A stretch of DNA of 22,463 nucleotides. It comes from a virus. The position numbers and the translations under genes are program-made. The stretch covers positions 1 through 22,463 of the IMG/VR virus record IMGVR_UViG_3300032294_003283. One strand, written 5' to 3'. The notes beneath the pieces are model-generated. The model searched no databases and was not told where the DNA came from. It saw only the letters and a list, made by a program, of their open reading frames with translations. Below are positions 1,017 through 18,415 of the stretch, one piece after another. Position 1 is the stretch's first letter, and every line of letters starts with the position of its first letter.

Positions 1017-2786
1017 TTAAGCTGGGAATTCAACTCCTGTTGGTAAAATGTTGAAATCTAGGATTACAAATTCCGCAGTTTTAGTTGGTTGGATGTAAAT
1101 CTGACCAATTAATTGGTTTCTATCAACTACATCTGGTGTGTTGTTTGATTCATCCATTACTACTTTGTAAGCGAATAAACCTTGTCTTTGTACTACGTTA
1201 TCTAAGTACGGATTTACTTGGTTTAAGAATCTATTTCTAGTAGCAGCTGTATTTTGTTCAAATACTAATGTGCGACCTACACCAGCAATATAATTTTTCA
1301 AAGCAATTAACAAACGACGAACATTTACTCTGTCTAAAGCACTTGCTTTTTGTTGTAATGTTTTCTGACCAAATACTACAACACCTTCACCAGGGAATGT
1401 AGCTAATGGGTTAACGTTATCGTTGTATAATGTATTTCTATCGTTTAATGATAATTTTCTTTCAACTTTAATTACGTTTGGAATACCACCACGAGTAGTA
1501 CCTGCAGGAGCAAACCAAGGAGCACTTACTTCATCTGTGAATGCGAATACACCACCCATTAATACTGAAGCAGGAACCCAAACTAGTTTACCCATTGGTG
1601 AACTGAATACTTGACACCATGGCCAGTAAGTAGCACCGTAGCTAGAATTTGAAGCATTTGCAGCATTTGAAGCACCCGTTACAGTACCACCGTAAGGAAC
1701 AGTATCAACTACTGCTAAAGCATCTGCTCTACCTTCAGCAAGTGCGATTGGATCTGCGTTATTAGCACCAATGTTAATTGCTGTGTTACCACCAGCTAAG
1801 AATAAACCTGGAGTTAACAATAAGTTAAATTGGTATTCATCTGTATTGTTTAATAAGTTTAAAGCAGGAGCATAATCAGCTGTAGTAAATCCTTGAGCGT
1901 TTGGAACACCATTAACGATTTGTTCAAACATATAACGAGATAAGTTTGTGTCTTCTACACCACCATTAAATGCACCATTTACTGAGCCACTACCTGGATT
2001 TGGTAAGCTTGAGCTATAAGTAGCAGCCATATAAGTACCGTTATTATTTATAGTATTATATTGTGCTTGAGGAACACTAGCTACACGAATATATCTTGAA
2101 GCATTAGCATAATCACCAATAGAATCAACATATCCTTGACCATCTACTGTTGAGTAAGTATAAACTGGTTTTGTGTTACCAATTACTCTAGCAATGTAGT
2201 TAGGTTGGTTAACGTCCATGGTCAAGTTAGTCCATGTTTCAAGAATATTTTTCTGAGCGTTGTTATCGTTACCGCTTCTTACTAATAAGGTAAATGTACC
2301 TCTTGTGTAATCTACGTTTGTAACTTCCCAACGTACGTTATCCATAGTACCGCTTGGTAAAGCACCTGAAATTACAGTACCACCTGCGTTGTTCATTTGA
2401 GCACCCCAAGCTAGTGTTTCTAACACAAAGCTGGTTGCTAACGCACCACTTGAAGGAGCACTTGCTGATGCAAAGCTGTTTAATGCTGTACTGCCAGTAC
2501 CAGCATGAGTAATTCTAGTTACTAATAAGGTATTACCACCATTTTCGAAATAGTTACGAGCAGCGATTGAAGTAAAGTATTCAGCGTCACCGCTAGTACC
2601 ATTGTTAAAAGTTGTACCGAATTTTGCAACGTAGTCGCTGTATGTAGTTACTAATGTTGGAACATAAGGAACACCATTAACAGTTGGACCTACAATAGCG
2701 GCACCAACTACAATAGGACCTTGTGATACTGCACTCTGATCGTTTTCGTTGGTATATACACCAGGAGAGATGATTGCTTCTGCCAT
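1017..2786 (-). CDS. 18: Contractile tail sheath protein, T4 gp18-like
   Basis: This is the sheath subunit that forms the outer contractile helix around the tail tube and drives DNA injection. At 589 residues it is somewhat shorter than T4 gp18 (659). The N-terminus has the family signature ISPGVYTNENDQS (about residues 6-18) and GAAIVGPTVNGVPYVPT. The conserved C-terminal domain includes NRFLNQVNPYLDNVVQRQG, an ANP-like VVMDESNNTPDVVDRN region, and QLIGQIYIQPTKTAEFVILD at about 558-577. The less conserved, Asn/Gly/Ser-rich middle probably forms surface domains. The gene is followed by the tube gene. Codons are richer in G and C than in the small neighbouring genes, as expected for a very highly expressed protein. 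Confidence 0.93.
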   Translation of the reverse strand: MAEAIISPGVYTNENDQSAVSQGPIVVGAAIVGPTVNGVPYVPTLVTTYSDYVAKFGTTFNNGTSGDAEYFTSIAARNYFENGGNTLLVTRITHAGTGSTALNSFASASAPSSGALATSFVLETLAWGAQMNNAGGTVISGALPSGTMDNVRWEVTNVDYTRGTFTLLVRSGNDNNAQKNILETWTNLTMDVNQPNYIARVIGNTKPVYTYSTVDGQGYVDSIGDYANASRYIRVASVPQAQYNTINNNGTYMAATYSSSLPNPGSGSVNGAFNGGVEDTNLSRYMFEQIVNGVPNAQGFTTADYAPALNLLNNTDEYQFNLLLTPGLFLAGGNTAINIGANNADPIALAEGRADALAVVDTVPYGGTVTGASNAANASNSSYGATYWPWCQVFSSPMGKLVWVPASVLMGGVFAFTDEVSAPWFAPAGTTRGGIPNVIKVERKLSLNDRNTLYNDNVNPLATFPGEGVVVFGQKTLQQKASALDRVNVRRLLIALKNYIAGVGRTLVFEQNTAATRNRFLNQVNPYLDNVVQRQGLFAYKVVMDESNNTPDVVDRNQLIGQIYIQPTKTAEFVILDFNILPTGVEFPA

Positions 2787-3442: not shown

Positions 3443-6214
3443 TTAACAAGGTGACATTGATCCAGGCCAGTTTGTTACTGAAGCATCACATAGTTGACCA
3501 CTACAAGGGTTAAATCTTAAGTATGTGTCAAAGAATGAATTATTTCCTGTAGTAATTGTTGCTCCATAACTACCACAACCTGCTCCTAAATCAATAGTAA
3601 AGTTAGCATTTGATGTAACGTTTTGTGGATTTTGGTTTGTACAATTATCTACAGTTGTAATTTGAATATTATAGTATTCAATAGCTGAAATATCTCCATC
3701 TCCAAAACAGTCAATAAATTGTACAAAAGCAAAGGTATCACTAAATGTAAATCCTTGAGGACCTGCTACTGAAGTAGAAGGTGTTCTTGAAGGTGTAACA
3801 GGTGGGGTTGGAGATGCTGTACGTGTTGGTGTTACTGGTGGGGTTGGTGATGCTGTTGGTGTTACTGGTGGAGTTGGAGATGCTGTACGTGTTGGTGTTA
3901 CTGGTGGGGTTGGTGATGCTGTTGGTGTTACTGGTGGAGTTGGGGATGCTGTGCGTGTTGGTGAAGGTGTAATTGTTCTTGTTGGTGTAATTGTAGGAGT
4001 AGCGGTTATACTTGGAGTACTTGTTATACTTGGTGTTATTGTTCTTGTTGGTGTTATACTTGGTGTTGCTGTTATTGAAGGTGTTGCTGTTCTTGTTGGT
4101 GTGATTGAAGGTGTAGCTGTTATACTTGGTGTTGGTGTTATAGATGGTGTAGCTGTTCTTGTTGGTGTAATACTTGGTGTTGCTGTTATTGAAGATGTAG
4201 GTGTAATTGTTCTTGTTGGTGTTATTGTTGGTGTTATACTTGAAGTTGGAGTAATTGTAGGTGTTGCGGTAATACTTGGGGTTGCTGTAATTGAAGGGGT
4301 TGCGGTTATTGAAGGTGTAGCTGTTATTGTTGGTGTAACAGAAGCTGTTACTGTTGCTGTTGGTGTAATTGATGGTGTAGCAGTTATTGATGGTGTTGCT
4401 GTAATTGAAGGTGTAATTGTTACTGTAGGTGTAATTGTTACTGTAGGTGTAACAGATGGGGTTGCTGTAATTGAAGGGGTTGCGGTTATTGAAGGTGTAG
4501 CTGTTATTGATGGAGTAACTGTTACTGTTGGTGTTACAGAAGGAGTAACTGTTACTGAAGGAGTAATTGTTACTGTTGGTGTAATTGAAGGTGTTGCTGT
4601 TATACTTGGAGTTGCTGTTATACTTGGTGTAATTGTTAATGTTGGAGTTATAGACGGTGTTACTGATGGTGATGCTGTTATTGTTACTGTTGGTGTAATA
4701 GTTGGTGTTACAGTTCTTGTTGGCGTTATACTTGGTGAAGGAGTAATTGTTCTTGTTGGTGTTATTGTTGTAGTTACACTTGGAGTTACAGTAATTGTAG
4801 GAGTAATACTTGGTGATGCTGTAATACTTGGTGTAATTGTTACACTTGGAGTAATTGTAGCTGTTGGTGTTACTGACGGTGTTGAAGTTATAGTAGGTGT
4901 TGGAGAAGCAGCTGGTGTAGCTGAAATAGAAATTGTTGGTGTAATTGTTGGTGTGATGGATGGTGATGCTGTTATACTTGGAGTAATAGTAGCGGTTAAT
5001 GTTGGAGTTAAAGTTGGTGTTAAAGTTGGGGTTACTGTTCTTGTTGGTGTAATACTTGGTGAAGCAGTAATAGATGGTGTTGCAGTAATTGAAGGTGTAA
5101 TTGTTACTGTAGGTGTAATTGTTGGAGTTACAGTTACAGATGGAGTAACAGTTACAGATGGTGTTATTGTAGCTGTTGCTGTTATAGAAGGTGTTACTGT
5201 TACAGACGGAGTAATTGTTACCGATGGAGTGATTGTTACTGTTGGTGTTATTGAAGGAGTAACTGTTACAGAAGGAGTGATTGTTACTGTTGGTGTAACA
5301 GTTGATGAAGGTGTAATTGTTAATGTTGGTGTAATTGATGGTGTTACTGTTACTGATGGGGTAACTGTTACAGAAGGAGTGATTGTTACTGTTGGTGTTA
5401 TACTTGGAGTAGCTGTTATAGATGGGGTTGCTGTTATTGATGGAGTTATAGATGGAGTTACAGTTACAGATGGTGTGATAGTAACTGTTGGTGTAATAGT
5501 TGCCGTTGGAGTAATAGATGGTGTTACTGTTACAGATGGGGTAATTGTTAATGTAGGTGTAATTGTTCTTGTTGGTGTTACCGTAGGAGTAATACTTGAA
5601 GTTGGAGTAATAGTTGGTGTGGCTGTTATTGATGGAGTTGCAGTAATTGAAGGAGTAATAGTAACTGTTGGTGTTATTGTTACAGTAGGTGTAATTGAAG
5701 GAGTTGCTGTTATAGAAGGGGTTACTGTTACTGAAGGGGTTACTGTTACTGTTGGTGTAATAGTTCTAGAAGGTGTAATTGAAGGTGTGGCTGTTATAGA
5801 AGGAGTAACAGTTACTGACGGAGTAATTGTTACAGACGGAGTAATTGTTACTGTTGGTGTAATTGTAGGAGTTACTGTTACCGACGGTGTAACTGTTACT
5901 GAAGGTGTTACTGTTCTTGTAGGTGTAACTGTTACTGAAGGTGTTACTGTTACTGAAGGGGTAATTGTAGGAGTAGTAGTAACACTTGGTGTTATTGTGC
6001 GAGTTGGCGTAGGAGCAGGTGTTGCTTGATCATATCCCCACCAACTTTCCATTCTAAATGGAGCAGATGGATCAGGTTGATAAGGGGAAAATGGATTTAA
6101 AGGAACATATATTCCTAAAGATGCAGAAGCCAACGTAAAAGGGGCTTGAGCTGGTACTCCCAGCTCAATTCTTATTTGGTCTAATGAAATAGAACTTGAA
6201 ATTGGTAACGGCAT
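3443..6214 (-). CDS. Giant Thr/Ser-Pro dipeptide-repeat virion protein with Cys-rich C-terminus
   Basis: This 923-residue protein has three parts. Residues 1-65 form a short head containing [12 protein letters not shown] and [10 protein letters not shown]; this resembles N-terminal modules seen in some phage structural proteins. Residues about 66-812 are low-complexity repeats of units such as [18 protein letters not shown] and TPTRTI, in which Ser or Thr falls at nearly every second position. Residues about 813-923 form a non-repetitive C-terminal domain with six cysteines. The last repeats change to [10 protein letters not shown] and are arranged as a 66-base tandem. No signal peptide is present. 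An exposed stalk or fibre with a terminal domain is likely; glycosylation is possible but unproven. The smaller gene at 11341-12435 uses the same repeat type. Confidence 0.85.
3822..3953 (-). repeat. 66-base tandem duplication within the repeat gene
   Basis: Two adjacent 66-base units (3822-3887 and 3888-3953) differ at only two bases. Each encodes 22 residues made of [10 protein letters not shown]-type units. The near identity, compared with the scattered synonymous changes in the rest of the tract, points to recent duplication. Confidence 0.9.
4277..4509 (-). repeat. 53-base exact repeat at 180-base spacing
   Basis: Bases 4277-4329 are identical to 4457-4509. The offset of 180 bases equals 60 codons, so the frame is kept. 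This marks an older segmental duplication or conversion inside the Thr/Pro tract. Confidence 0.85.
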
Positions 6215-6250: not shown

Positions 6251-6484
6251 CTATTTTTCCCATTTACCCTCTGGACATGATGTTTTGTCTTGAGCAAATA
6301 TTTTTTTATTCAATGGACAACCACACAAGTCACAATAATAAAAATCAATTAATGTAGTATTTTGTTTGCGGTGTTGACATCCATTGCATATAGATGCTCT
6401 ATAAGCAGCTGTAAATTTTTCTTCAGCTGTTGGATTAGCAGCTGTTATCCATGCTTGAGCTATTTCTTTAAACTTCTTTATCAT
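6251..6484 (-). CDS. Small Cys-rich zinc-ribbon-like protein
   Basis: The 77-residue protein has a helical N-terminus (MIKKFKEIAQAWITAANP) and six cysteines at 33, 36, 51, 54, 56 and 70, in the pattern CNGC, then CDLCGC, then a late CPEGKW. Two CxxC pairs of this kind usually bind one zinc ion in a ribbon fold. Small proteins with this Cys pattern and a terminal CP-GKW occur in other phage genomes, without a settled function as far as I know. The start overlaps the end of the upstream gene by 17 bases, indicating translational coupling. A nucleic-acid or protein-binding role is inference. Confidence 0.8.
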   Translation of the reverse strand: MIKKFKEIAQAWITAANPTAEEKFTAAYRASICNGCQHRKQNTTLIDFYYCDLCGCPLNKKIFAQDKTSCPEGKWEK

Positions 6485-11340: not shown

Positions 11341-12435
11341 TTAAGTAAATTTTACACTCATTACGTGTACTGAACCACTAAACTCTGTGTATCCTGTTCC
11401 TGCTCCTCCAAATTGTGTAGGTACTATTGTAGTGCCACCTGATGGCCAATCACCTAAAACAACTCTATTAATAGCTGTTACATAAGGACTTCCAGAAACA
11501 GTACCTGTTCTGTTATTTGTTAATGTTTGAATAGTTCTATAGAATGGACCACCTGTATTCATCACTAAGAAATATCTATTTGCTGGGATTGTAACTGGAA
11601 CATTAATACTGGATGAATTAAACCCACCTGCTGTGTAACTAAATGAGGTTGAATTGGTAATTTGGGTTACAGTACCAAAACTACCAATTGAATTATTAAC
11701 AGAAGATACAGCAACATACCATGCCCATGAATTAGTACCATTTTGAGTTGTGTTTAATCCAATATTAAACGAGCCTGTAGAAAGAACTATTGGTTGATGT
11801 GCATAAAATAATTGCCAACATCCATTATTTGAGTTAAACGCTACAGATGATGTTACCCCACTTTGAGAGGTATAAACATCAAAGAAGCTTCCTACTGTAT
11901 AGTCAAATGCAGAACCTGTTACAGGTACTACTGGTATTGTTGGTGTAGGTGTAATTGATGGAGTTATTGTAGGTGTAATTGAAGGTGTACGTGTTATTGT
12001 TGGAGTTATTGATGGTGTGGGTGTTATTGTTCTAGTAATTGAAATTGTAGGAGTTATACTAGGTGTTATTGAAGGAGTAATTGAAGGTGTTCTAGTAATT
12101 GTTGGTGTTATTGATGGTGTAGCTGCTGGTGTTCTAGTAACTGATGGTGTAATACTAGGGGTTCTAGTAATTGTGGGTGTAATAGAAGGATTAACAGGAG
12201 TTGTACTTCTTGTTGGTGTTATTGAGGGTGTTATACTTCTTGTTGGAGTTATAGAAGGTGTTACACTTCTTGTAGGTGTTATTGAAGGTGTTACTGAAGG
12301 TGTTGCAGTTATACTTGGTGTTACCGAAGGAGTAGGAGTAATTGAAGGAGTCCTGGTTATAGAGGGTGTTGGTGAAGGAATTGGGGCACCTGCTTGTTTA
12401 TATAAATAAAACCCTCCGTAAATCTTAACAGCCAT
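11341..12435 (-). CDS. Thr/Ser-Pro repeat fibre protein with beta-rich C-terminal domain
   Basis: The 364-residue protein has a short N-terminus (MAVKIYGGFYLYKQAG), then residues about 19-169 of [12 protein letters not shown] and TPTRSI repeats, and a C-terminal domain of about 195 residues (172-364). That domain is rich in Ser, Thr, Asn, Gly and aromatics, has alternating beta-like segments (SWAWYVAVSSV, RYFLVMNTGGP) and only one cysteine. Like the larger gene at 3443-6214, Ser or Thr falls at every second repeat residue, with one phase break near PVNP (80-84). It starts 10 bases after the stop of the giant fibre gene. A receptor-contacting or decorative fibre is likely; the C-terminal fold is not one I can name. 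Confidence 0.82.
   Translation of the reverse strand: MAVKIYGGFYLYKQAGAPIPSPTPSITRTPSITPTPSVTPSITATPSVTPSITPTRSVTPSITPTRSITPSITPTRSTTPVNPSITPTITRTPSITPSVTRTPAATPSITPTITRTPSITPSITPSITPTISITRTITPTPSITPTITRTPSITPTITPSITPTPTIPVVPVTGSAFDYTVGSFFDVYTSQSGVTSSVAFNSNNGCWQLFYAHQPIVLSTGSFNIGLNTTQNGTNSWAWYVAVSSVNNSIGSFGTVTQITNSTSFSYTAGGFNSSSINVPVTIPANRYFLVMNTGGPFYRTIQTLTNNRTGTVSGSPYVTAINRVVLGDWPSGGTTIVPTQFGGAGTGYTEFSGSVHVMSVKFT
11929..12381 (-). repeat. Thr/Ser-Pro repeat tract of the 364-residue fibre
   Basis: This DNA encodes residues about 19-169 of the smaller repeat fibre: [12 protein letters not shown] and TPTRS units of the same type as in the 923-residue protein, but richer in Arg (TRTP, TRS). 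Confidence 0.88.
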
Positions 12436-12445
12436 ATCCTAATTT

Positions 12446-15400
12446 TTACATAAATGTAGCTAAAGATTTAACACTCCAGCCAGATGTATTAGTTATTGCA
12501 TTAAATTCTACATCACCTCCTGCAAGAATAATAGACATTGTTACTGGAGAGGTATTACCTAAATCACGAGTGGAAGTATCTGTAAATTCAACATTTACTC
12601 CGTTCCATATAGCCATTACTTCACCTGTTCTTGCATTTACTCCGTTTCTAACAGTATATTTAAAGAATGCTGATGTAAATGATCCTGTTGGTTGTGTAAA
12701 TAGGTTATTTGTTCCTGTAGATGTTGATGCAATTGTAGCATAATCATTAAATGTTGCATCAAATGTGAATGTGTTTTTAACTATGAAGTTATCAGCATAC
12801 GAGCTTGTTGTAGCAAATGAAGCACTTGTTGCAGTGTTTGCATTTGTTGCTTGAGAAGCACTTAAAGCATATGAAGCACTTGTAGCAAATGATGCACTTA
12901 TAGCATTTAATACATAAGATGCTGTTACAGCATTAGTAGCATTTGTTGCAAATGATGCACTTACAGCATTTAAAACATATGATGCTGTTGTTGCATTAGT
13001 AGCGTTTAGAGCATACGAAGAACTTATTGCATTATTTGCATTTTGCGCTTGTGATGCACTTATAGAATTAGTAGCAAATGATGCACTAATAGCATTGTTT
13101 GCATTTTGTGCTTGAGAGGCACTAATAGCAAATGATGCTGTTTCAGGAACATTAAGAGCAAATGATGCTGTTAATGCGTATGAAGCACTTACAGTACTAT
13201 TAGAAGAAACAGCGTGTGATGCACTTGTTGCAAATGAAGCACTTGTTGCTGTTTGAGCATTACCAAATAATGAACCACTAATATTTGAACTATTAATCCA
13301 TTTACCAGCTGTTGTACTATAAACTAATGGTTGTAAGTTTGTTTGTCCTGATATGGCAACATCAGATAAACCTGATAAAGTTTGAGTTACAACTGATCCA
13401 CCACCACCTGATCCTCCTACTTGTCTAAATAAACCACCAGGATATAGAGTATAATCTCCAGGGGTTGTAAATACTCCTGTACCATTTATAATAATAGCTC
13501 CTAAATATATAGCATTTGCTGCTGTATTTGGTGCTTCAACAAAAGATTCAAAATTTATATTAGCACGTGCTTCAGCTTCAGTACCATATCGTGCATTACC
13601 ATAATAAACAATTATTGCTTTTGTTACTGAATTTGGGAACCAAAATACACGTTGAATTGACCAATTTGACCCACCAACAGTTGATAAAACACCATTATTT
13701 GAATATTTAGTAGGGTCAATAGTAGTATATCCTGCTCCCCCATTTGTATCATATACCCAAGTAGATCCTGATTGGTAGTATCTCCAAATTTTAGATGTAT
13801 TAGTTCCTGAATCAACAGTATAGAATGGTTCATTTGGATCTACTATGTAATTAGATCCAGGAGCATAAGCCGTACCACTTCCTACAACTAAACTTCCTGT
13901 TGAAGAACCACTTGGTGCTAAGGTATATCCTGATAGTTTTAATGGTCCAAAGGCTCTATTAAATACGTTTTGAGCTTGTTCAAAACCATATGCTACAGAA
14001 GGTTGTGTTTTAACAGCATTGATTGTAGATTGATTTTGGAAAAATACACTACCAATATTGATTAATGTATCAAATTGACCATTACTAAATGGAGTACCTT
14101 GAGCAAAAATATTACTAGTTGAATCAACACCAACAAATACTTGTTGAAATGAACTAGTGAATGCACTAATGCTTGCTGATAAGTTCCCCCAATTTAAGTA
14201 TTGAATTGTTGGGTATGGGTTGTCGTTTAATGAAGCATTTAGGTTAACAATAATACCACTACCGCTACCTATTTGGTAAACAGTAGATGATTGTGATGTA
14301 ATAATACCACCATTTAATAAACCTGTGTATAAGTTACCTTCTAACCAACGTAAACGAGTTGTATTGGCATATCCACTACCATTTTGAGTAAAGTATAGGT
14401 CATTTGTAGAACCAGATACATAAATGTAAGAGGCAGATATAGAATTATCTATACTTCTTGATATAGGATTAAATCTAACTACACCAGTATGCTGAGTATC
14501 TCCAAATATTTCTATAGTTGGAGTTGATGGATTTTCTGATCCTGATATGATTATACTACCTGATAGTGAAGTATTTCCAACTAATGAATTCGAACCAGAA
14601 GTAAATAAACTTCCTGTTACTGTTTGAGTACCACGGAATACATTTGAACCAGTAGTTGCAAATTCAGTACTATCTTTTCCGTCTAATAAATTAGCATTCT
14701 CAGCAAATGATGCACTTGTTGCGTTAAAGGCATATGAAGCACTTAAAGCATAAGATGCACTTACTGCATTTAACACATAAGATGCTGTTGTAGCATTATT
14801 TGCATTTTGAGCTTGTGAAGCGCTTATTGCGAATGATGCTGTTGCGTCTGGGTTAAAGTTAAGAGCAAATGATGCTGTTGTTGCAAGAGCAGCATATGAA
14901 GCACTTAATGCTGCTGTAGCAAATGAAGCAGTTCCTGATAGATTACCAGTTATTCCTTCTTGTACTATTAAACTTCCACTAATGTCTAATGAACCAGTCA
15001 TTTCATGACTGTTATTAGGAGCTAACAATAATTTCATATTAGCATCCACATCATCACCACCAGCAAAGAAACCTACATATTCATTAGAAGCATTACCTAT
15101 ATGAAGGTGAACACCTGTAGAGTATAAGTAAGCATCATTTGGACCACCAAGAATACCTGTGTAATTGGCTCCATTAATACCCATATCAATGTAGTTAGTA
15201 GTTTCATTACCGTTATTAGCAGTTGCTACAACGTCTGAAGAAGCACTAACACCATTATTTAAGTTTTGTATGTTTAACTGTAAATAGTTATTTAAGTTAC
15301 CTTTACCACTAATTACGTTATATGAGGATGTATTTGGTTGGAAAACATATAATGCTTCAGGTGCTGCTGTAGTGTTATTATCTTGGTTGATTATAACGCT

Positions 15401-18400
15401 GAATGAATTTGATTGGTATATAGCACTAGTTACTAAACTATTTTGTGAGTCAAATAAAGGTACGTGGTTTGTAGCACCGTTTATGTTAAGTGAGTAACTA
15501 GAAGTTAAAGCATTATTTGCGTTTTGTGCTTGTGAAGCACTTGTAGCAGTATTAGCGTTTTGAGCTTGTGAAGCGCTTATTGCAATATTAGCATTTTGAG
15601 CTTGTGATGCACTTGTAGCAGTGTTTGCGTTTTGTGCTTGTGATGCGCTAAGAGAATAAGATGCACTTACAGCATTTAAAACATATGATGCTGTTATTGC
15701 ATTGTTAGCATTTTGAGCTTGTGAAGCACTTATTGCATTATTTGAATTAATTGCTTGTGATGCACTTGTAGCATTGAACGCATAAGAAGCACTTGTTGCA
15801 AAACTAGCACTCACAGCATTTAAAACATATGATGCTGTTATTGCATTATTTGCATTTTGTGCTTGAGAAGCGCTTGTTGCTGTGTTTGCATTTTGTGCTT
15901 GAGAAGCACTTAACACAGACATCGAAGATGTTTGGTTAGTTAATATTACATTACTGTTATTAACAGCAAGAGAACCCGTGATAGTAACGCTACCAGTAAA
16001 TTCGTGTGTATTCGTTAAACTACTACCAAATATTGTAGATCCCGTAATATAACTAATTGAAGATGTAATTACTTGTACGTTTAACTGTTGTGCTGTTATT
16101 GTACCAGCTACATTTAAATCACTAGATATACTTAATGATCCTGTAATTTGAGATCCAGAAGGTGTGTTTAATTGTAATATTCCTCTAGCAAAATCACCTT
16201 TAATTAATGGTGTTAATGTATTATTATTAGCAATCCATAATTGATTATCACCAGATGTTTGTAAAGCACCTGCACTTCTACCTAAAAATACGTTTCCTGA
16301 ACCTGTTGCTAATGCCCCTGCATTGTATCCTAAGGCAGTATTATTACTTCCTGTAGTATTTGCTAATAAAGTATTAGAACCTACACCTGTATTAAATGAT
16401 CCTGAAGTATTTGAAAGTAAGGTGGATGATCCTACAGCAACATTATTTGAACCTGAAGTATTAGTTAGTAATGTTTGAAAACCTATTGCTGTGTTATTAG
16501 ATCCTACTTGGTTTAATTGTAAAGCATCAACACCTATTGCTGTATTTAAATTATTGTTGTTTCCTCCATGTCCAATAGTTAAATCAGATACATAAATTTG
16601 TCCTGCAAAATAACCACCATTACTAGAAGATATAAAGCTACCTACGTTTAATCCACCAGATACATTTAAACTACCTGAAATTCCTTGACTACCACTAAAA
16701 ATGTTTGAACCAGTAGTAGCAAATGAACCTGTATCTATACCTGCATTAGCAGCGTATGAGGCAGTTATAGCAAAGGAAGCACTTAGTGCTTGTATTGAAT
16801 ATGAGGCAGTTAATGCATTTGCAGCGTATGAGGCAGTTAGTGCTTCAAGAGCATAAGAAGCAGTTCCTGATAAATTACCTGTTATACCATTTTGAACATT
16901 TAATGAACCTGTTATAGTTGTACTACCACTTATTACTACTGTGTTGTTAGAAAGCACATCTAATATAGGCTCATTAGAAGAGTTATTAATAGAATATATT
17001 GAACCTGATGTTACATCATCTACTTCTAGTAATACTCTGTTAGATCCACCATATACAGTAAATACATTATTACCTGTACCATAAATTGCAGCTGTATTTG
17101 CTGAGCTAGATACAATAAGTGATCCTGTTATGGTTTGGTTTCCATTAAATCGGTTTGAACCAGTTGTAGCAAATGAACCTGTGTTTATATCAGCATTAGC
17201 AGCGTATGAAGCTGTTATAGCAAACGATGCTGTTCCTTGTAGTGAACCTGTTATACCATTTGTTACTATTAAAGCACCTTCAATATCTAGTGATCCTGTC
17301 ATCTCATGGAGATCATCAGGATTTAATACGAATTTTTGGTAAACATCAACTAAACCACCACCTACGAAAAATCTTATATGTTTATTAGCTGTAGCATTAC
17401 CTATTGTTAAATCATTACCTGTGGAGTATAAGTAAGCATCATTTGGACCACCAATAGAACCTGTAAAGGTACTACTGTTGATACCCATATCAATAAAATT
17501 GATAAATTCATTTCCATTGTCCGCTGTTGCTACTATATCTGAGGATGCTGTTGAACCACTGTTTATATTAAAGAGGTTAAATTGCACATAGTTATCTACA
17601 TTAGCTTCAGCTGTAATAACATTGATAGAATCAGGATTTGGTTGAAATACAAATAATGCTTCTGGGTTGTTTGCTGTACCAAATTCGGCATTAATAGTAA
17701 TACTTTCTGTTGTCCATTGGCGCATTACGCTAGAGGACATACTATTGTTTGAATCAAAGAACGGTATGTGACTTTGAGCAAATTCTATATTTGATTGGAA
17801 GCTTGAAGTATTAGAATTTAATGCTTGTGATGCACTTATAGCAAATGATGCTGTTTCAGGAACGTTAGATGCATACGAAGCGGTTAATGCCTGTGAAGCA
17901 CTAATAGCAAAAGATGCTGTTAAAGGAACATTTGAAGCAAACGATGCTGTTACAGCAAATGATGCTGTTCCTTGTAGTGATCCTGTTATTCCTCCTTGAG
18001 TTACATTTACACTTCCAGAAAATACAGCAGGACCTATATTTGTAAAAGTAGAAGAACCAGATACGGTTAAACTACCTGTAATTATTTGATTTCCGTTAAA
18101 TCGGTTTGAACCAGTTGTAGCAAAAGCACCAGTAATAGCTCCTAATTCAGCCTCAGTTACAAAAGTTGCATTTAAAGATGAACTAAAATCTTGTAATTGA
18201 GATATAGAAGAACTAAATGATGCTGAGTTAGCATAATAAGATGCTGTAAAAGCATTAAATGATCCTGTAGTTACAAAGCTACCTGTAAGATTACTAGGGT
18301 CTCCTGGAGGACCTTGAGGACCTATAGGACCAGGAGTTGATACCTCTATTACGTTAGTGTTGTTAGGATTAACGTTTACAATATTGTAAGGGCTATTAAC

Positions 18401-18415
18401 GTTACATGAACTCAT
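12446..18415 (-). CDS. Giant mosaic tail fibre / adhesin-like structural protein (1989 residues)
   Basis: This is the largest gene of the window. Visible parts in order: a collagen-like stretch GPIGPQGPPGDP (29-40); a duplicated domain, first copy about 216-400; an NTAIG-type array with 17-residue period (623-730); a long tract of SASQAQNANNA and TASYVLNAVSA repeats (835-975); the second copy of the duplicated domain (983-1165); a non-repeat globular region (about 1425-1665) with FWFPNSVTKAIIVYYGNARYG; a Gly/Ser hinge GGSGGGGS (1667-1674); more Ala/Ser repeats (1721-1876); and a C-terminal domain (1880-1989) with AFFKYTVRNGVNARTGEVM. Recurrent ITGSL-GTASFA units join the parts. It lacks an S74 domain. 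It starts 2 bases after the upstream stop and is probably a long tail fibre or similar adhesion organ. Confidence 0.88.
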   Translation of the reverse strand: MSSCNVNSPYNIVNVNPNNTNVIEVSTPGPIGPQGPPGDPSNLTGSFVTTGSFNAFTASYYANSASFSSSISQLQDFSSSLNATFVTEAELGAITGAFATTGSNRFNGNQIITGSLTVSGSSTFTNIGPAVFSGSVNVTQGGITGSLQGTASFAVTASFASNVPLTASFAISASQALTASYASNVPETASFAISASQALNSNTSSFQSNIEFAQSHIPFFDSNNSMSSSVMRQWTTESITINAEFGTANNPEALFVFQPNPDSINVITAEANVDNYVQFNLFNINSGSTASSDIVATADNGNEFINFIDMGINSSTFTGSIGGPNDAYLYSTGNDLTIGNATANKHIRFFVGGGLVDVYQKFVLNPDDLHEMTGSLDIEGALIVTNGITGSLQGTASFAITASYAANADINTGSFATTGSNRFNGNQTITGSLIVSSSANTAAIYGTGNNVFTVYGGSNRVLLEVDDVTSGSIYSINNSSNEPILDVLSNNTVVISGSTTITGSLNVQNGITGNLSGTASYALEALTASYAANALTASYSIQALSASFAITASYAANAGIDTGSFATTGSNIFSGSQGISGSLNVSGGLNVGSFISSSNGGYFAGQIYVSDLTIGHGGNNNNLNTAIGVDALQLNQVGSNNTAIGFQTLLTNTSGSNNVAVGSSTLLSNTSGSFNTGVGSNTLLANTTGSNNTALGYNAGALATGSGNVFLGRSAGALQTSGDNQLWIANNNTLTPLIKGDFARGILQLNTPSGSQITGSLSISSDLNVAGTITAQQLNVQVITSSISYITGSTIFGSSLTNTHEFTGSVTITGSLAVNNSNVILTNQTSSMSVLSASQAQNANTATSASQAQNANNAITASYVLNAVSASFATSASYAFNATSASQAINSNNAISASQAQNANNAITASYVLNAVSASYSLSASQAQNANTATSASQAQNANIAISASQAQNANTATSASQAQNANNALTSSYSLNINGATNHVPLFDSQNSLVTSAIYQSNSFSVIINQDNNTTAAPEALYVFQPNTSSYNVISGKGNLNNYLQLNIQNLNNGVSASSDVVATANNGNETTNYIDMGINGANYTGILGGPNDAYLYSTGVHLHIGNASNEYVGFFAGGDDVDANMKLLLAPNNSHEMTGSLDISGSLIVQEGITGNLSGTASFATAALSASYAALATTASFALNFNPDATASFAISASQAQNANNATTASYVLNAVSASYALSASYAFNATSASFAENANLLDGKDSTEFATTGSNVFRGTQTVTGSLFTSGSNSLVGNTSLSGSIIISGSENPSTPTIEIFGDTQHTGVVRFNPISRSIDNSISASYIYVSGSTNDLYFTQNGSGYANTTRLRWLEGNLYTGLLNGGIITSQSSTVYQIGSGSGIIVNLNASLNDNPYPTIQYLNWGNLSASISAFTSSFQQVFVGVDSTSNIFAQGTPFSNGQFDTLINIGSVFFQNQSTINAVKTQPSVAYGFEQAQNVFNRAFGPLKLSGYTLAPSGSSTGSLVVGSGTAYAPGSNYIVDPNEPFYTVDSGTNTSKIWRYYQSGSTWVYDTNGGAGYTTIDPTKYSNNGVLSTVGGSNWSIQRVFWFPNSVTKAIIVYYGNARYGTEAEARANINFESFVEAPNTAANAIYLGAIIINGTGVFTTPGDYTLYPGGLFRQVGGSGGGGSVVTQTLSGLSDVAISGQTNLQPLVYSTTAGKWINSSNISGSLFGNAQTATSASFATSASHAVSSNSTVSASYALTASFALNVPETASFAISASQAQNANNAISASFATNSISASQAQNANNAISSSYALNATNATTASYVLNAVSASFATNATNAVTASYVLNAISASFATSASYALSASQATNANTATSASFATTSSYADNFIVKNTFTFDATFNDYATIASTSTGTNNLFTQPTGSFTSAFFKYTVRNGVNARTGEVMAIWNGVNVEFTDTSTRDLGNTSPVTMSIILAGGDVEFNAITNTSGWSVKSLATFM
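14921..15469 (-). repeat. Second copy of duplicated fibre domain
   Basis: Encodes residues about 983-1165 of the giant fibre. Shared landmarks with the copy at 17216-17770 are PEALYVFQPN, GGPNDAYLYSTG and HEMTGSLDI, all at a constant offset of 767-768 residues. Confidence 0.88.
16226..16549 (-). repeat. 17-residue NTAIG-type array in the giant fibre
   Basis: Encodes residues 623-730. The glycine of NTAIG/VAVG/NTGVG/NTALG/VFLG falls at 628, 645, 662, 679, 696 and 712, an almost exact 17-residue (51-base) period. The pattern resembles the left-handed beta-roll heads of trimeric autotransporter adhesins. Confidence 0.85.
17216..17770 (-). repeat. First copy of duplicated fibre domain
   Basis: Encodes residues about 216-400 of the giant fibre: PEALFVFQPN, GGPNDAYLYSTG and HEMTGSLDI in the same order and spacing as in the copy at 14921-15469. 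Confidence 0.88.

Follow-up and report, generated by a model that had tools for sequence, protein, structure and literature searches.

An alternating Ser/Thr tract protein of a T4-like phage as a candidate mucin-like fibre stalk linked to phage-encoded GT60 glycosyltransferases

Protein tracts rich in Ser, Thr and Pro occur in the mucins of eukaryotes and T. cruzi, on which GT27 polypeptide GalNAc-transferases (ppGalNAc-T) and the GT60 enzyme pp-alpha-GlcNAcT initiate glycosylation. GT60 and GT27 have in common a DxH motif and the glycosylation of polypeptide Ser/Thr (PMC7185993), and the T. cruzi enzyme adds GlcNAc to mucin Thr (PMC3769586). Among phages, structural proteins of mycobacteriophage virions are glycosylated (Freeman et al. 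2023, as cited in PMC12619734), and that source describes phage glycosyltransferases that act on DNA and host antigens. In the cultured Xanthomonas jumbo phage XacN1, ORF334 is a GT60, its neighbour ORF333 a carbamoyltransferase and ORF350 a protein with a TPT tract; the paper on this phage reports two or more glycoproteins from proteomics, and its authors suggest phage-encoded transferases (PMC5852040). Phage tail fibres and adhesins, finally, combine a conserved N-terminal domain, a repetitive shaft and a variable C-terminal module, encoded in the structural gene block. The locus described here resembles each of these systems in part. It has a Ser/Thr/Pro-rich tandem tract and is linked to an enzyme that shares the DxH motif and the fold class of the initiating transferases, but it belongs to a bacterial virus, its Ser/Thr period is strictly two and its Pro spacing even, the enzyme is often a direct gene neighbour in related loci, and the phage sugar is a prediction. 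Sugars sit on capsid and tail-tube C-termini in the mycobacteriophages, whereas here they are proposed for a dedicated stalk served by a ppGalNAc-T-like enzyme. XacN1 shares the GT60, the neighbouring carbamoyltransferase and the tract protein, but it is an unrelated jumbo phage, the ORF350 tract is shorter and less regular, and the available text of PMC5852040 does not assign the glycoproteins to ORF350. The fibre-like architecture is present too, although the shaft is an (x-[S/T])n chain, unlike the trimeric beta or collagen-like shafts that are known.

The window is the entire 22,463-base record of virus IMGVR_UViG_3300032294_003283. Pfam and PHROG matches place a gp23-type capsid gene, PhoH, the sheath and S74 fibre genes together, as in the structural block of a T4-like myophage, and the capsid protein shares 54.6% identity with that of Flavobacterium phage immuto, the nearest cultured relative. 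The stalk gene is flanked by neck-type genes and the tail sheath gene (Table 1). A close relative of 174 kb, G001 (MCP 86% and sheath 88% identical), has the syntenic order sheath, small ORF, stalk gene, 77-aa ORF, and also a second stalk protein of 2350 aa. The small Cys-rich protein is of CxxC type and has a counterpart at L092 5357-5590 (-). The block of the stalk gene also contains a shaft of a different kind, a 1989-aa fibre-like protein at 12446-18415 (-) in which a collagen-like GPIGPQGPPGDP stretch is accompanied by numerous repeats of the TASYALNAVSASFA type. A Pfam search of the 923-aa protein matched no family and no known fibre domain. Both tract proteins of the record match PHROG 15511, of unknown function (E 1.4e-35 and 5.7e-07), but this membership is weak evidence because the match runs mostly through the low-complexity tract.

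Table 1. Positions of the stalk gene, its parts and neighbouring features in the window
Feature	Position	Strand	Basis
Stalk protein gene, whole ORF, 923 aa, ATG start	3443..6214	-	Synteny with relative G001
N-domain (aa 1-63), candidate anchor to the virion	6026..6214	-	Homology with L112, L113, L114; distant stalk-less L115-L123
Alternating (x-[S/T])n tract (aa 69-811), candidate mucin-like stalk	3782..6010	-	Phase counts; class-wide
Distal tract part, aa 760-811, different repeat units	3782..3937	-	Repeat of 66 bp at 3792-3963 (95% alike)
Six-Cys domain at the C-terminus (aa 813-923), candidate tip	3446..3778	-	Other tips in L112, L113, L114
Tail sheath gene, downstream of stalk gene	1017..2786	-	Pfam Phage_sheath_1; 88% identical in G001
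Second tract protein, 364 aa, shorter, different C-terminal domain	11341..12435	-	Same kind of tract
77-aa Cys-rich ORF directly upstream of stalk gene	6251..6484	-	Kept at the same place in G001

The original prediction held that Ser or Thr occupies every second residue for about 745 residues, and the counts bear this out. Between residues 69 and 812 of the 923-aa protein, Ser/Thr is found at 366 of 372 in-phase positions and at 8 of 372 off-phase positions, whereas the best of 2000 residue shuffles placed 210 in phase. From residue 69 to 759 the sole in-phase exception is A435, and Pro is off-phase in 127/127 cases; the phase is looser in the final ~50 tract residues, which consist of different units containing P-P. 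The autocorrelation of Ser/Thr positions, the check suggested for this claim, alternates up to lag 30 between about -0.92 (odd lags) and about +0.92 (even lags). The other details of the description hold as well: the x residues are limited to Pro, Ile, Val, Ala and Arg, with Leu and rarely Ser/Thr besides, the seemingly irregular TPTSSITPT keeps the phase, and the C-terminal domain contains six Cys. Consecutive Pro residues are spaced by 6 in 80 and by 4 in 35 cases (115 of 126 spacings), while a spacing of 2 would be expected at 37% if the x positions were shuffled; the tract is best read as units of TP[ST]xTx alternating with TP[ST]x. Residues 66-812 are 50% Ser/Thr and 20% Pro, a tandem composition of the mucin type.

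When a degenerate protein pattern of the tract was searched in IMG/VR, 105 stretches matched. Among the fetched loci, mostly IMG/VR phage contigs and with the window itself included, 99 ORFs in 88 loci contain period-2 Ser/Thr tracts with Pro, the longest extending over 1609 residues. Pro spacings of 4 or 6 account for 5317 of ~6147 (86%) across 65 distinct tracts, and odd spacings for ~0.6%. These tract proteins constitute a large class that was previously undescribed.

How is the tract built into a protein? Used as a single sequence, the N-terminal domain gave no useful match in cultured phages and none in viral contigs, and its homologues were found once an alignment served as the query. 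L112, L113 and L114 share 76%, 75% and 51% identity with it, and all of them carry stalks followed by different tips, the tip of L112 being Gly-rich. In the more distant homologues L115-L123 the domain is fused directly to small domains, without a stalk. This combination of a conserved anchor and variable tips is that of phage fibres and adhesins. Since the N-domain is seen with and without the stalk and the tips are exchanged, the stalk appears as an optional insert between the two. The C-terminal domain alone found no relative among cultured phages and viral contigs, and AlphaFold returned no usable model for it (pLDDT 43), so that searching the two ends separately, as had been advised, was rewarding for the first only. 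From these comparisons the N-domain is probably the anchor and the C-terminal domain an exchangeable tip. The rigid stalk of the original prediction survives in the form of a long shaft that joins the N-terminal module to the tip, and the proposed display on the virion is consistent with gene position and architecture.

No glycosyltransferase gene, GT60 included, is present within the 22-kb record. G001 contains two tandem GT60 (PF11397) genes (E 5e-53 and 3e-70, above the Pfam curated cut-off) at 90-92 kb, co-resident with but not adjacent to the stalk gene at 130-135 kb. Its other sugar genes comprise epimerases, DegT aminotransferases, PglD, GT1/GT2 and a carbamoyltransferase. G021 and G036, the remaining close relatives above 100 kb (MCP 79-85%), also have two PF11397 genes each, which makes a pair in 3/3 such relatives, and the phage of the 22-kb record may carry GT60 too. 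Across 15 and 24 phage GT60 sequences the D-S-H of the DxH motif is invariant. A sequence search with GT60 against the PDB gave no ppGalNAc-T match, and the relation becomes visible at the fold level only: with an AlphaFold model of a phage GT60 (pLDDT 87) the best 33 PDB matches in Foldseek are all polypeptide GalNAc-transferases, and VIA-align gives Z 19.9-22.7 for 29 ppGalNAc-T entries, with no other glycosyltransferase scoring above 17.1. The predicted GT-A fold is thus nearest to that of the mucin-initiating polypeptide GalNAc-transferases, although a common fold alone does not prove the acceptor. Two long frames that contain PF11397 domains, G031 (55742-57886) and G018 (156741-158359), of 844 and 933 aa, are possibly fused or double GT60 enzymes. 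Elsewhere in G001, ORFs that resemble GroEL/GroES (L130/L132; 77623-79695) and QueC/QueE (L130/L132; 102371-105333), judged by eye from ORF starts only, suggest a chaperonin and a 7-deazaguanine pathway of its own.

The linkage between GT60 and the tract genes was assessed in both directions. In the forward direction, 50 records of ~49 kb or more were sorted into stalk-bearing ones, defined by two or more stalk motifs, and stalk-less ones; GT60 was found in 21/33 of the former and 0/17 of the latter (Fisher 7.6e-6), and in 15/25 and 0/16 after dereplication by hand (p 5e-5). Twelve of the 33 stalk-bearing records lack GT60, many of them being fragments. In the reverse direction, 44 records were chosen by GT60 regardless of stalks, with 30 chosen by an immuto GT2 as controls. 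A stalk motif occurs in 29/44 of the former and 2/30 of the latter, and a tract gene, at the protein level, lies within ~8 kb of 25/44 GT60 loci and 0/30 GT2 control loci (p 4e-8). Dereplication leaves 22/40 against 0/22 (p=3.8e-6); the GT60 and stalk sets partly share ancestry, which dereplication lessens in both directions, but it is no phylogenetic test. In the other 19 of the 44 GT60 loci no tract lies within this distance. Where a tract gene is near, it is on the same strand as GT60 in 22/25 cases with a median gap of 78 bp, in orders such as stalk-stalk-GT60-GT60 (L310) and GT60-stalk-stalk-GT60-stalk-stalk (L311), and 16 loci have GT60 and stalk within 3 kb of each other compared with a mean of 3 under random placement. 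This co-occurrence and adjacency is a new link: the literature searched contained no paper that connects the two gene families, and none that deals with phage PF11397 or with phage proteins of the mucin type. Two alternatives were considered and rejected. Generic GT2 (PF00535) is found in stalk-less genomes as well, in addition to the empty GT2-centred loci. For a hydroxyproline acceptor, by a Skp1-like GT60 route, there is no association with the 2OG oxygenase PF13640, and G001, G036 and XacN1 all lack this family. Unrelated phages have a carbamoyltransferase gene next to GT60 or in its vicinity (L131:6215-12434 in G001, L308:15001-18718 in XacN1), and the glycan may be carbamoylated.

Based on these observations, we propose that the 923-aa protein is probably a virion fibre or adhesin of a T4-like phage, whose mucin-like stalk is O-glycosylated by the phage's own GT60 enzymes. 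The small conserved N-terminal domain would anchor the fibre to the virion, the 743-residue (x-[S/T])n tract would form an extended mucin-like stalk and the exchangeable C-terminal domain would be the tip. Pro at every fourth or sixth residue would block folding and aggregation. The in-phase row of Thr and Ser would be the substrate on which the phage-encoded GT60 polypeptide transferases start O-glycosylation. The O-glycans would hold the stalk stretched, make it soluble and protect it from proteases, and may also shield the virion or tune adsorption. A glycosylated mucin-like brush was among the roles first imagined for the tract; the statistical and genomic linkage to GT60 and the likeness of that enzyme to mucin-initiating transferases speak for it, with the glycosylation itself as the predicted step. 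The mucin-like stalk is favoured by independent genomic evidence that goes beyond the letters of the sequence. For the wider proposition that many aquatic tailed phages have a self-contained mucin-type glycosylation system, in which giant (x-[S/T])n stalks and co-encoded GT60 yield mucin-like virion fibres, we see the case as evenly balanced.

What are the implications of a glycosylated stalk? If the model is correct, many unannotated phage proteins of low complexity, a large class, would gain a function, and so would a phage glycosyltransferase family that is common but unassigned. Mucin-type O-glycosylation, usually considered eukaryotic, would be encoded by bacterial viruses, and it would be explained how phages build very long flexible stalks; by the standard rise per residue, ~743 extended residues would have a length in the region of 200 nm, similar to that of the virion. 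There would also be a one-enzyme, one-substrate system in a cultured phage.

Could the stalk work without sugar? The tract might be an unmodified spacer, an extended disordered or polyproline-like rod that sets only the reach of the tip, in which Ser/Thr alternates because beta-branched Thr, Val and Ile together with Pro keep the chain extended and soluble. The occurrence of the N-domain and tips with and without stalk, the freely varying stalk length and the stalk-bearing records without GT60 agree with such a rod, but it leaves unexplained the GT60 linkage with its tandem same-strand neighbours and the presence of a hydroxyl residue at every in-phase position, and we regard it as unlikely. 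Alternatively, GT60 might act on hypermodified DNA, host surface glycans or another virion protein, the linkage reflecting shared host-interaction islands. Phage glycosyltransferases that work on DNA and host antigens are known from the source cited above, and the sugar cluster of G001 is large and partly shared with stalk-less immuto. However, stalk genes are found in 0/30 GT2-centred islands of related phages, and therefore mere sugar islands fail to explain the linkage; moreover, the predicted fold is that of protein-modifying rather than DNA-modifying enzymes, and GT60 is carried in pairs that flank stalk genes. This makes a different target quite improbable. In immuto itself, gp169-181 (L325; L005 region) form a sugar-biosynthesis cluster that resembles part of that of G001, with neither stalk nor GT60, and its target is therefore something else or additional. 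The polysaccharide-binding surface, the third role of the original prediction, received no support. That the hydroxyl row is itself an unmodified ladder binding polysaccharide or an ice-like surface is hardly credible: were the chain a strand, regular alternation could create a single polar face, but Pro every 4-6 residues breaks beta strands, the x residues vary and the GT60 linkage would have no explanation.

The original prediction had argued from many synonymous differences that the protein pattern is selected, and the comparison of repeats supports this. At lags 6, 12, 16 and 22, the main ones of the repeat, copies share codons as often as synonymous shuffling predicts, and lags 2, 20 and 60 show a small excess. 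Between repeat copies pS is 0.51, against 0.53 under random pairing, while pN is 0.25-0.30, below the 0.40 under random pairing. The repeat units do show the synonymous excess over nonsynonymous change whose absence had been named as counter-evidence. With synonymous sites randomised and amino-acid changes fewer than random, the pattern is held at the protein level, and the repeat copies are old at the DNA level because their synonymous sites are at the random expectation at the main lags. The orthologues L112 and L113 point the same way: stalk dN/dS is ~0.23, with alignment caveats, and the N-domain is identical in 62/63 aa, whereas turnover in the stalk is strong, the commonest exchanges being I/V and S/T. 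Stalk indels are even in 13/13 cases, which is support and not proof since the aligner may favour phase-keeping gaps. An origin of the tract by hexanucleotide-based slippage, with the phase as a by-product of low-complexity DNA expansion, would suit the repeat families at 18, 48 and 66 bp and the even indels, but the copies are not recent and the phase is nonetheless maintained across 690 residues and throughout the class, so that this idea is already largely refuted and exceedingly improbable.

A 692-aa antisense ORF at 3951-6029 (+) was rejected as a gene: equal or longer ORFs arise in 1000/1000 synonymous shuffles, and the frame is therefore a by-product of composition. Similar long antisense frames are seen in L092 and L007.
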